The position numbers and the translations under genes are program-made. The notes under the pieces were generated by a model, which was not told the DNA's origin, ran no database searches, and worked only from the letters and a program-made list of their open reading frames with translations. Shown here piece after piece: positions 2,096 through 47,093 of a stretch of DNA of 64,000 bases. Source of the DNA: Clostridium sp. (GTDB lineage: Bacteria; Bacteroidota; Bacteroidia; Bacteroidales; Bacteroidaceae); assembly GCA_023663705.1 (NCBI GenBank), contig JAMPGY010000014.1:1-64000 (forward strand). The letters are read 5' to 3'. Each line of letters begins with the position of its first letter. The first letter of the stretch is position 1.

Positions 2096-4126
2096 TTACT
2101 CCGTGCAACGGATGACGGCCCCGCCGTTGGTAGGCACAGTGAGGCGGAAACGTCCGTTACGATTTACTTTCACCGTCTCGCATTGCGGCGTGCGCCCGTC
2201 CTTTCCGTCGTGGTAATAGGTAACGGTCTTCCCGGCCAGCATGGGCAACTGGAGCGTCAGCGTGCGGGACTCAGGTTCGGCATTCAACACAGCCACATAC
2301 CAATCGGCCCCCGACCGTCGGGCCAATGCCACATAACGTCCGGGATAGCCGTCAAGAAAACGTATCTCATCCCAAGCGGTAGGCACGGTCTTCATGAAGT
2401 CTATCTCAAAACCGGGCTGTTCGGTCAGATTGTTCGGGGCAAGCGCAAAGTTCTGCACACTGCTCTGAAACACCACTGCCGTAGCCAGTTCAAACACATC
2501 CGTGGTGCGGCGTACAGTGCCTCCGTCATTGCCCCGGTTGAGCCTGCCGTTGAGCACCGTTCCACCAAAATCCATGCTCCCCACGGCATTGCGGATGAAA
2601 GGATGCAAACAGGCGTTGAAGGCCTCGAAATCACAGAAATGCTGCTGAAACACGAGGTTCTCGCTGGCCAGCACGGCCTCGCTGGCACAGTAGTTGGGAT
2701 ACATGCGCTCCCATCCGCGCGGCAGCGTGCATCCGTGGAAGATGACCTGCAGACCGTAGTCGTTGGCATCGCTGAGGATGGCCTCATAGAGGCGCAGCGT
2801 CTCCTGCTTGTCGCCGGCAAAGAAGTCCACCTTAATGCCTTTTGCGCCGTTGTCTCTCAACCACTTCATCTCCGCCTTGCGGGCAATGGGGTTGCTCATG
2901 CAGTTCTTGGGATCCTGCGGGGCATCGTTCCATCCGCCGTTGGAGTTGTACCACACGAAGAGTTCCACACCGAGTTGCTTGGCCAGGCGGAACAGTTCGC
3001 CCATACGCTCGCGGCCGATGCCTTTCTGCCACAACCCGTCCACCAGACAATACTCCCAGCCCAGGTCGGCGGCCAGACGGATGTAGGTGCACTGGTCTTC
3101 ATAGTTCAGACTGTTGTCCTGCCACAGTATCCACGACCAGGTGGAGCGTCCGGGCTTGTAGGCCTGCGAGGGTTCGTAGAGCGGTTCCACCACATCAAAG
3201 GGCACGGTGGTCTCCACCACCGGAGCCAGCGTGGGCGCCAGGGTTATCGTGCGCCAGGGCGTGGCGCCGGGCAGTCCCACCTGTGCCCCCGTGCTACCGA
3301 ATCCGTTGTTCTCGCCCGGCATGGGATAGGCAACGGTATAGAGCCCGTCGACGGTTCCCTCGCTCAGATGAGATGCGCAATAGTTGCCTCCCACTCCGGT
3401 CTCGCTTACCAACACCCAACCGTCTCCACCCACGCGGAACAGACAAGGGAAAGTGTATCCGCATCCATATTTGGACGGGGTGCCCATGGGTTCGTCCGGG
3501 GTGTATTCCTCTTCGTAACTGGGTTTGGTGCGCTTCCACCCGATCATCTCGGTGGATTGCGGACAGATAAATGTGGTGGTACCGGACGGAAAATCAAAAC
3601 CGCTCACCTCGGAATCCACAACCATACAAGCTGTTTCGCCCTGCATGGGGATGCGATAGCGGAAAGCGATGTTGGCATCGCTCACGCGAAACTCCGTCAT
3701 CATCGACAATCCGTCACGGTTGGTCAGATTAACCGTGAGAACATGAGCCCGATAGTCCACACGACTCACCTTGCTGCGCGAGAGTTCATAAGTGGTGGCA
3801 AGGGTGTCGCGTGCAATGCCTTTCCACTGCAAGCCATCCGCAAAATCACCGATATTGGTGTGCAACCCCAACGGAGAATCCTCCACCAACGTCACTTCCT
3901 CCTGTTGCCCGCCGTAGTAACCGGCCCGATAGAACAACCGGCCGTCTCTCAGAAACACCCGCAAATAAGTGCGTCCGTCCGGACTTGTTGTCACGGCCTC
4001 GTCAAACCGATCCACCGCTACTGTCGTTTCATCCACCGATTCCTCTGCCCTCAAAGCATAAGCCGGCGGGACACAAACAGCTGTCACACAAAAATACAAT
4101 GCTGATTTAAGCCATCCTTGTCTCAT
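2096..4126 (-). CDS. Secreted glycoside hydrolase family 97 protein, retaining clade (alpha-galactosidase-like)
   Basis: A 676-residue secreted enzyme predicted to cleave alpha-linked hexosides. The start is taken at MRQGWLKSALYF (4126) because a -7 box (4175-4182) overlaps the more upstream in-frame ATG at 4177; from 4126 a signal peptide is evident, ending near AYALRAEE. An N-terminal beta-sandwich is followed by a TIM barrel carrying GIKVDFFAGDKQ; Asp434 sits where retaining GH97 enzymes have their nucleophile, whereas inverting SusB-type enzymes lack it. CASEAVLASE would supply the acid/base Glu, and a C-terminal beta domain follows. No SusC/SusD pair is adjacent, so it is not in an obvious polysaccharide locus. 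Family is sure; substrate specificity is inferred from the retaining-clade signature. Confidence 0.88.
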   Translation of the reverse strand: MRQGWLKSALYFCVTAVCVPPAYALRAEESVDETTVAVDRFDEAVTTSPDGRTYLRVFLRDGRLFYRAGYYGGQQEEVTLVEDSPLGLHTNIGDFADGLQWKGIARDTLATTYELSRSKVSRVDYRAHVLTVNLTNRDGLSMMTEFRVSDANIAFRYRIPMQGETACMVVDSEVSGFDFPSGTTTFICPQSTEMIGWKRTKPSYEEEYTPDEPMGTPSKYGCGYTFPCLFRVGGDGWVLVSETGVGGNYCASHLSEGTVDGLYTVAYPMPGENNGFGSTGAQVGLPGATPWRTITLAPTLAPVVETTVPFDVVEPLYEPSQAYKPGRSTWSWILWQDNSLNYEDQCTYIRLAADLGWEYCLVDGLWQKGIGRERMGELFRLAKQLGVELFVWYNSNGGWNDAPQDPKNCMSNPIARKAEMKWLRDNGAKGIKVDFFAGDKQETLRLYEAILSDANDYGLQVIFHGCTLPRGWERMYPNYCASEAVLASENLVFQQHFCDFEAFNACLHPFIRNAVGSMDFGGTVLNGRLNRGNDGGTVRRTTDVFELATAVVFQSSVQNFALAPNNLTEQPGFEIDFMKTVPTAWDEIRFLDGYPGRYVALARRSGADWYVAVLNAEPESRTLTLQLPMLAGKTVTYYHDGKDGRTPQCETVKVNRNGRFRLTVPTNGGAVIRCTE

Positions 4127-18682: not shown

Positions 18683-21306
18683 TTATTTTTTTGCAGATGA
18701 GAACCTATATTTCAGGGTCAGCATTCCATATCGTCCAAGCGTTTTTTGGTAGGTATGTGTCAGCACCGTCGCGCTGTATTGGCGGAGGAAACCGTCATTC
18801 TGATTAAAAAGGTCGTTGCCTGAGATACGTACAAACAGATTCTCTTTCTTAAAGAACGCACGCTCAATGCCCAAGTCCAGCATGACCCAGTTTTCGCGTT
18901 TTCCAGAGATATAGCCGGCATAGTTGTGATAATTGAGCGTGGCATTGAAGTCCAAATGCCATGGCAGCTGAAAGTCCAGTTTTCCAGTCAACAGGTGTTG
19001 CCACTGCGTCCCACCGTTAGCGGATGCATAAGTTCCGTGATTGTCCTCGGCTGTCAGCTCGTACGCCACGGAAAAATCTACGGGATTGAGTTTCAAGCGA
19101 GGCTTTATGCTGGCTGTATAGGTGTGGAGGCGGTTGTCGTTGAACTGCTGCTCTGTGTTGTCTGCTGTCACAACTCCTAAGTAGGTTTGTGTGCGCAGCA
19201 CGGAAGCTTCGGCAAAAGTTTCAAGCCAAAAACGTTGAACCACGTCCAAAGGAGTGGTAAAACCAATGTTGACCTTCCCATCCCTGTTGCCTGATACATT
19301 GACCGGCTTGATGGTAATGACGCCAGTGTTTCGGTCGTAGGTTGTGAAGTTAGTTATATCGTTATTGGAATGGTTGAAGAACATACTTGCATTCAGCGTG
19401 CGTGTAATCTTGCCATTTTCCGTTTCTTTCGTGAAGTTCTTGGTATACCATGATGCCAATCCTTGTGTCGTACCCTTACGCAGATTCTCGTTGCCCAGGA
19501 TTATGTATTGAGGATCTGCCATGTCGGGATAAGTTACCAATTGGTTAATATCCGGTATCTTTGGGCTGATGTAATACCGTACAATAAGATTGCCGGTTGA
19601 CGACTTTCTTCGAAATTGTGTGTTGCCACTGATATAACTGTAATCCTTGTGAATGTTGAGAACGGACAAATTCCGTTTCAAATACGTCAATTCATCACTT
19701 CTATAATGGTAAACAGGCTTAAATTCAAAAGAGTATCTGACATTTGCCGCACTCACTTTTGTTGCGCTCAGACTCACTTCAACAGAATGCCGATTAATCC
19801 ATGTCCTCAAATGACGCGTGGTTTCATCGTCTATGAGACTTTGTCCTTTTGCCTCATCTGCATCAAGCAAATAGCCTCGTTCGTCATTTGTGGATGTGTT
19901 CCTTTTATAATTGTATTCTGTATAAAGGCAAAAACGACTGAGGCCTTTTACGTTAAAGTACTTCATTGCCCGCGCCATTACTCCCTGGCTCATACTGTTG
20001 CTGTTTTTATCAAGAAGACGATTCAACTGTGTGGAATTTGCGGCTTCGTTATTGAAATACTTATAATAAGTGCTGTTATATTCCTCATTGTCGTTGCATC
20101 CCAGATTCATCCTATGCGCAAAAATCAGATAGGCATTAGCATTCTGCGGAATCTTGTATGTCATTTTTAGTTCATGACTATAGTTGGCACCACTATCATC
20201 AATGTCATTCTTCTTCTGCTGCAGGTCAATGACGTTAGGCTGATTACTGTCGGCTGATAACAGGTATTTCAGCGTATCCGCAATGCTTCCGCCATCGAAT
20301 ATGGGATTCTCATTCCAATTGGCCTGCAAGGCGGTACTATTCCTTCTGCTCCAATGTGTATCAAATGAGCCAAAATAATTCAAAGTCATAAGCTTGGAGA
20401 TATTCCAGTCGACCTTCAGATGTCCAGCAAGACGGTCCCTGTCGGTTTCGCTGTGAGTATCCGAAGCCGAGAACATACTGCCATCGGAAAGGAACAACTC
20501 GGAACTCCGCTTATCCTCCTTGTCGTATATTTCCTTGTTATAATCAATACCTCCTTCCAAAAAGAAATACCCTTTGTCTCTCATGCCCTTTTTGTTCTTC
20601 CAGAAGAACGTTGCCCCGGGAGTATAGAACGAGTTGTCGCCTGCCTGCGTCTCTCCGGCACGCTCCTTGCCGTCACCGTTATACCACATCTGCTCATTGA
20701 TATTATTGGCATTGCCAAAAAGAGAGATACGGAGCTGGTCTGTAAAGGTATTTCCAAAAATCTTACCCATGAAACGCCCGTCGGTACCGCCTCCGGCAGT
20801 CACCTCGCCAGTCCACGTTCCCATGTACTTGCGACGCACGGTTACGTCAGCCACCAGTTCCTCCTTGCCATCGTCTACGTCATACCTCATGGCAAAGTCG
20901 CTCTTGCGCTCATATACCTTGACATGTTTCATGATATATGACGGCAATGCCTGCAAAGCCAGCAGAGGATCCTTGCTGGAGAAATCCATGCCGTTAATCA
21001 GCACCCGTTTAACCTCACGTCCGTTATGATAGAGCACACCATTGCGGAAACTCATGCCCGGCAGTTTCTCAAATGCCTCCCGTAACAGGGCACTACTTTT
21101 GAGATTAAGCGCATCCAGGTCGTAAATAGTCGTATCATTTCGGGTGACAATCAAAAAACGGGTTGCCTTCACCGTTACTTCCTGTAGCACCTTATCCTTA
21201 ACGCTATCCTCTGCAAATGTTTTTACTGATTCATCGTACTGCCGACAGGGGGGGGGGGGGGAGAAACTGCATAGCAGATAGAAAATAATGCTATCTTAAA
21301 AATCAT
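18683..21306 (-). CDS. TonB-dependent receptor-type outer membrane barrel, frame interrupted by a C14 tract (phase-variable candidate)
   Basis: An outer-membrane beta-barrel of the TonB-linked type (OMP_b-brl_3-like). The long frame (21190 downward, 835 residues) opens with LQEVTVKATR and a plug-like region (KLPGMSFRNGVLYHNGREV, RVLINGMDF), then a barrel ending in LTLKYRFSSAKK. It lacks its own signal peptide. An ATG at 21306 starts a plausible signal peptide, MIFKIALFSICYAVS, which runs into 14 C (21248-21261). With 14 C that frame ends at TAA 21225-21223. With 15 or 12 C it would read prolines, then CRQYDESVKTFAEDSVKDKV, and join the receptor. As given the gene is therefore OFF. Unlike many relatives it has no CarboxypepD_reg domain before the plug. 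Ligand unknown. Confidence 0.8.
21248..21261 (-). repeat. Homopolymer of 14 C (coding strand) in the receptor's signal-peptide region
   Basis: Fourteen consecutive G on the + strand, the longest homopolymer noticed in the window. It lies 15 codons after the putative start codon, exactly where slipped-strand mispairing would switch the reading frame of the receptor. Confidence 0.9.
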
Positions 21307-21507
21307 GATAGCGATCAAGTTAGTTAAACGATAATACATAAATACTTTTATTTAATACATGAATAATTAAATCATTATAGTTTTAGTTGCCCATACGTTT
21401 TCGTGTATACAAAAGTTTGAAACTGTCTAAAATCAAATCCTACAAGTTTTATTTTCCTTTGCTAATTACCAGGTTTATTTTTCGTACAAAAAACTTTACC
21501 TAATATA

Positions 21508-47012: not shown

Positions 47013-47093
47013 ATAACAAAAGCTAATTTTACCCCCCCCGAAAGCTAAAGTATGTTAACACGAGAAAAATAGGGGTTTTATATATACAAAAAA

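Follow-up and report, generated by a model that had tools for sequence, protein, structure and literature searches.

A C14 tract between the signal peptide and the body of a Paraprevotella outer-membrane protein gene as a candidate slipped-strand switch

Switching of outer-membrane receptors by poly-G tracts is described for the meningococcal haemoglobin receptors (hmbR type; PMC3786947), the nearest described case to the gene analysed here. The poly-G phasome of Campylobacter has been catalogued with PhasomeIt (PMC6321876), and Type I and Type III methyltransferase genes are described as switching by repeat length, with phase-variation repeats also present in methyltransferase genes from commensals and from environmental organisms, and phase-variable restriction systems cited in periodontal species including Prevotella intermedia (PMC7394358). 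The textbook example of phase variation by inversion of DNA is that of gut Bacteroidales, through invertible promoters and other inversions, SusC/SusD loci included (PMC12632263); the words "slipped" and "homopolymer" occur 0 times in this 2025 review of the order, whose passages on the subject treat inversions. No report of a homopolymer or slipped-strand phase-variation set in Bacteroidales was found among the matches listed from the open-access literature without preprints. The locus described below would thus bring a known mechanism into a lineage for which those matches held no report, and it is a switch candidate with good support from its genus and family.

The window, that is the whole stretch of 64,000 nucleotides that was analysed, carries on its minus strand a receptor gene that occupies positions 18683-21339, tract included. 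The parts of the locus, in the direction of transcription, are:

21340..21507, minus strand: intergenic region 5' of the receptor gene, presumed promoter and leader
21262..21339, minus strand: start and signal-peptide frame, 26 codons, MYYRLTNLIAIMIFKIALFSICYAVS; signal peptide assigned by eye against the orthologue L007
21270..21272, minus strand: ATG in the third frame (MQFL...), just 5' of the tract
21248-21261, minus strand (the coding strand): C14 homopolymer, directly 3' of the presumed signal-peptide cleavage region
21223..21225, minus strand: TAA that ends the signal-peptide frame at the assembled tract length
18683..21247, minus strand: receptor body frame including its stop, outer-membrane beta-barrel protein, out of frame with the signal peptide

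From the ATG at 21339 the first frame passes through MYYRLTNLIAIMIFKIALFSICYAVS and the prolines of the tract and then through seven codons to the TAA at 21225-21223, and the receptor frame, 854 codons from the tract to the stop at 18683-18685, differs from it at 14 C. The first-pass annotation had described a receptor frame without a signal peptide and an upstream one put out of frame by the 14 C, and reading of the frames confirmed this. Its frame arithmetic also proved right: one C gained or two lost would rejoin the halves, and at 14 C translation ends early, at a stop seven codons past the tract. The start codon was moved from the ATG at 21306 to that at 21339, 11 codons farther 5', because the N-terminus of the orthologue L007, MPFRLITFIFLLILKVASLPICHAG, matches there by eye. 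At other tract lengths, translation might begin at the ATG at 21272 and give a leaderless product. The region scanned 5' of the receptor gene has no more sigma-70-like sites than chance would give.

Analysis of the protein disclosed a sole Pfam match, to OMP_b-brl_3 (PF14905, E = 7e-14); when E values up to 1 were admitted, the family was found in 16 of the 18 aligned members, among them the focal protein, and full-length L007 matched it at 1.8e-8, while the orthologues L005 and L006 matched no Pfam family at 0.01. Neither NCBIfam nor, at 0.01, a search of PDB sequences gave a match for the receptor. The succession of CarboxypepD_reg and Plug that marks a SusC-type N-terminus was absent by Pfam, and a SusC-type receptor was rejected after profile comparison with two such receptors gave no real match (probability 1). 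The earlier assignment to the TonB-type receptors was borne out for the C-terminal outer-membrane beta-barrel. As to the plug, Plug (PF07715) had no match in the focal protein and a weak one, at E = 0.048, in one of the 18 aligned members, and the protein may or may not be of the TonB type. The predicted product is here called an outer-membrane beta-barrel receptor-like protein. The gene upstream of it encodes Mur_ligase_M and Ala_racemase domains, and the gene downstream an MFS transporter.

As in the meningococcal genes, whose products are switched nutrient receptors, a C/G homopolymer is located inside the frame of an outer-membrane receptor gene, and lengths three apart would all be ON. 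The present gene differs in belonging to another phylum, in having no Pfam match that would place it in the same receptor family, in having its tract directly after the signal peptide, and in being a candidate from sequence only. With the inversions reviewed for Bacteroidales it shares the order, similar classes of surface target and the same presumed purpose, but those are driven by recombinases, whereas the focal locus implies neither a recombinase nor an inverted repeat.

A scan of genome contigs, which detects close relatives only, found three orthologous loci: L005 in an uncultured Prevotellaceae MAG (67%), L006 in Alloprevotella sp. oral taxon 473 (55%) and L007 in an uncultured Paraprevotella MAG (67%). 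Genome G003, from the same genus as the window, was the one close match among 100 other genomes and does not differ from L007 in the 5.5 kb that were compared, and the genus is labelled Paraprevotella for this reason. Members of Paraprevotella are gut commensals. L005, L006 and L007 all carry signal peptide and body in one frame, and the homopolymer is absent at that place. As the three orthologues hold both halves in one frame, the halves of the focal locus were taken to be one gene, and as none of them has the tract, it probably arose on the lineage of the window. An antisense or intergenic run was ruled out by the intact gene on either side and by the in-frame orthologues. Comparison of tract length in related genomes, suggested in the first-pass annotation, gave no length series for the receptor gene, because the orthologues found lack the tract, and this counts against a switch.

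Orthologues without the tract, and an assembled state that is OFF, would also be expected if the tract had expanded once and left the gene off and decaying. Against such a frozen pseudogene stand 854 codons free of stops and of a second frameshift, and amino-acid change that is not accelerated with respect to two relatives, the relative-rate counts for the focal body being 57 against 61 for L007 and 56 against 72 for L005. Differences between the body and L007 at codon positions 1, 2 and 3 were 0.25, 0.18 and 0.56, respectively, an excess at the third position. On account of this excess and of a rate no faster than that of the relatives, the receptor body does not look like an old pseudogene. 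We regard a frozen pseudogene as very unlikely; a recent loss of the receptor gene is possible.

Chance was modelled for the 2.74 Mb genome with Markov chains of orders 0-3 trained on the window only. The models predict 0.0006 to 0.03 C runs of at least 14 per genome, against three observed (two C14, one C16). Five C/G runs of at least 10 were present, which is no clear excess over orders 0 and 1 (6.6 and 4.9 expected) and an excess over orders 2-3 (0.5-0.6), and A runs of at least 10 numbered two, against 2 to 15 expected. A mere chance run was ruled out for length by these models, and also for the pattern of placement. Besides the focal C14, the five runs comprise a C14 in L001, a C16 in L002 and runs of 10 in the genes L003 and L004. 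In L003 the run separates an upstream, signal-peptide-like frame of 53 codons from a downstream one of 424 codons, the two being out of frame with each other, and OmpA matches below cut-off; in L004 it separates 34 codons from 290, again out of frame, and Pfam gave no match. The same genome contains a G9 in frame within the signal peptide of L041, a gene of 612 codons, and, on one contig, four G8 tracts in frame in genes (L052, L053) that look, by reading of their sequence, like polysaccharide enzymes.

The remaining two long runs have particular surroundings. The C14 at positions 53-66 of L001, a contig end, shares flanks with positions 2518-2526 of L042, also a contig end, but the tracts themselves are unlike in length and sequence, C14 in the one and CCA plus C9 in the other, which would suit two copies of one repeat. 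The C16 at positions 874-889 of L002 adjoins what seems to be an incomplete duplicate of the 3' end of a 6,7-dimethyl-8-ribityllumazine synthase (ribH-like) gene, and the full gene is located 2.7 kb from it, at 3550-4089.

All C/G tracts of at least 10 in the genus were then collected, on both strands and in all frames, with one genome per species, and amounted to 45 tracts from 14 of 18 genomes (0-6 per genome). A crude fixed rule took the best pair of a start frame and a downstream frame, with at least 150 codons, at least 20 on each side and 60 more than any in-frame reading. This rule scored a gene as out of frame at 14 of the 45 tracts, or at 13 of 44 if the focal tract is set aside; the corresponding figures were one of 38 for A tracts (Fisher p = 0.001) and 4.3% for 4140 random positions (p = 5e-9). 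A looser rule gave a weaker contrast, namely 15/45 for C/G, 4/38 for A and 5.2% of 2760 random positions; at least three of its four poly-A cases are, by our reading, tracts before the real start. The poly-A control covered 38 of 101 listed places from 11 genomes and omitted six genomes with A tracts, three of which belong to the C/G set. Under the fixed rule the other C/G tracts were in frame well inside a gene (5/45), in frame near an edge (1), in no long frame (20), in none (1) or elsewhere (4). Density of tracts of at least 11 in the genus is not clearly above that in the rest of the family.

These counts bear on an error in length, by which the true tract would keep the frame open and the gene would be ON in all cells. 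Long homopolymers are hard to assemble, and it is a point against the switch that assembled lengths of 14-base homopolymers may be off by a base. Contig ends occur within 200 bp of seven of the 45 tracts of the genus, where 0.54 would be expected, either because tracts are hard to sequence or because mixed lengths break the assembly; the undecayed receptor body would likewise agree with a gene that is always ON. However, C/G tracts break genes in many separate assemblies (14/45 in the genus and 7/41 in the family, against 1/38 for A tracts), and a coding C tract of about 14 would be expected to slip even if its length were wrong. An error in length is considered unlikely.

The 14 tracts are those of the window, L003, L004, L059, L077, L078, L079, L082, L088, L092, L094, L095, L096 and L097. 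Pfam was applied to the genes concerned as separate pieces, or to an orthologue in place of the gene. Matches were Glycos_transf_2 (L078, L082), Glycos_transf_1 (L096), Acyl_transf_3 (L077), MBOAT (L095), hexapeptide transferases (L079, and L097 via L060), Wzy_C below cut-off (L059), Methylase_S on both sides of the tract (L088, hsdS-like) and hybrid two-component sensors (L094, and L092 via L058). In raw counts the 14 broken genes thus mostly encode sugar-polymer enzymes, hybrid two-component sensors or outer-membrane proteins, with one hsdS. The Pfam profile runs on across the tract in L077 (Acyl_transf_3 4-59, then 76-261) and in L078 (Glycos_transf_2 1-48, then 55-131). L082 may be two neighbouring genes, and the membership of L097 among the 14 is doubtful because its likeness to L060, the other transferase of the pair, is confined to the downstream side. 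The five tracts in frame inside genes were found in two sensors (L058, L065), a type 9 secretion plug protein (L093), an acyltransferase at a contig end (L090) and L089; this last gene, with C10, was read as a probable tryptophan synthase beta and counts against the switch reading.

This set resembles the Campylobacter phasome in that coding repeat tracts occur across a genus and are catalogued as putative phase-variable genes. It differs in the 0-6 C/G runs of at least 10 per genome and in the hybrid two-component sensors and SusC-type receptors among its genes, and it is known from sequence alone.

Tract length could be followed between species in a hybrid sensor, whose orthologues have at the same place and with like flanks G11 in frame (G013), G12 out of frame (G015) and G6 in frame (G002). 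A weaker sensor relative (L159, 67%) spans the tract position with no run of six or more, and the match to another (L160) stops before it. The hexapeptide transferase pair L060/L097 has C10 in G013 and C11 in G015, with likeness on the downstream side only, and the intergenic pairs L068/L084 and L073/L074 have equal lengths, G10 in two species.

Slippage at the RNA level, by polymerase or ribosome, would give every cell a constant small share of full-length product and no heritable switch. Transcription may slip on any 14-base homopolymer, but the absence of the tract from the orthologues and the sensor tract lengths that differ between species point to change at the DNA level, and RNA-level slippage was rated the least probable of the explanations considered.

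Outside the genus, 41 of 68 listed tracts of at least 11 in the family were examined; of the 27 omitted, 15 begin in the first 500 bases of a contig, and the other 12 were dropped by no rule, before any sequence was seen. The fixed rule found a broken gene at 7 of the 41. In four loci from three other genera (L146, L148, L172, L174) tracts of G11-G14 follow 18, 41, 19 and 53 codons, respectively, of a SusC-type gene and put its body, which matches CarbopepD_reg_2 and Plug, out of frame with the signal-peptide start. In L146 and L172 the body shares its frame with an ATG directly 5' of the tract, from which a protein without a leader would be made, and for this reason the fixed rule filed them as ambiguous. 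Four such N-terminal placements in SusC-type genes compare with about 0.1 expected of 41 (Poisson 4e-6), an estimate made by hand from the number of Plug matches, 41-62, in each of the four genomes with these tracts. Acyl_transf_3 genes with tracts occur in the family out of frame (L150, L154, L179) and in frame (L155, L171), and in L147 the likely start lies just after the tract. For other families of the order, where 20 of 48 tracts from a listing counted by hand were sampled, 2/20 break a gene by the fixed rule.

L139, in the family, has two Methylase_S tracts, one of them out of frame. Of the G10-G12 tracts in the hsdS-like L088 and L139, two are out of frame and one is in frame, which hints at a restriction specificity that can be switched. 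These tracts would work like the repeats of Type I and Type III methyltransferase genes, and part of the restriction-gene pattern may already be known from that literature; unlike those restriction genes, the focal gene encodes an outer-membrane protein.

The ON/OFF switch by slippage put forward in the first-pass annotation is supported by a tract located in an intact gene without decay, by similar gene-breaking tracts in the genus and by the same layout in the four SusC-type receptors of the family; the three orthologues without the tract speak against it, as do the weaker contrast under the looser rule, the tract density in the genus, the sensor relative L159 and the two intergenic pairs of equal length. 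We consider it likely that the C14 serves slipped-strand phase variation of a surface receptor, as one locus of a wider poly-G/C set. It would be a contingency tract between the signal peptide and the mature domain of the outer-membrane beta-barrel protein, changing by single bases through replication slippage at a rate expected to be high. One length class in three would join the signal peptide to the receptor, which would then be exported; other lengths would yield a short peptide or, in the third frame from the ATG at 21272, possibly a leaderless protein. A population would consist of a mix of cells that export the receptor and cells that do not, and the assembly shows the OFF state. Slippage at the focal tract, the ON state, export and benefit are what we infer. 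Gains or losses that preserve the frame should be tolerated, since the prolines encoded by the tract would stand right at the start of the mature protein, next to the cleavage region. The wider set of the genus would extend such variation to polysaccharide synthesis, hybrid two-component sensors and restriction-modification. If a second layer based on slippage is real, surveys restricted to inversions miss part of the surface variation of Bacteroidales, and genes broken by tracts are easily mistaken for pseudogenes or for proteins without a signal peptide.

A broader proposal, put at somewhat less than an even chance, is that Paraprevotella and other genera of the family have a second, genome-wide poly-G/C switching system beside invertible DNA, with coding tracts (capsule-type enzymes, hybrid two-component sensors, hsdS, SusC-type receptors) and promoter tracts 19-21 bases 5' of TAnnTTTG. 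At the loci L001-L004 and L038-L135, from the window's own genome and the genus, TAA directly follows 34 of 74 G runs of at least 8, coding and intergenic, against 36 of 2460 runs of G4-6 (p = 6e-37). If such a system exists, this association would point to a common origin or upkeep of the tracts. Outside the genus it is weaker (10/21 by hand count, then 3/20 in a second family batch and 6/20 in other families), and the genome-wide system was judged less probable for this reason.

TAnnTTTG, which we take to be the Bacteroidales -7 box, was found within 80 bp of 15/40 non-genic tracts, against 9/188 control windows and 3/50 genic tracts. Intergenic G8-G11 tracts are located upstream of a box on the same strand by 19 bases in the window, L047 and L056 and by 21 bases in L049 and L152; the distances vary in the other ten of the 15. 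The tract in the window is a G8 at 47032-47039 on the minus strand, intergenic and 173 bp 5' of a gene of 815 codons whose product matches a ricin-type lectin domain.
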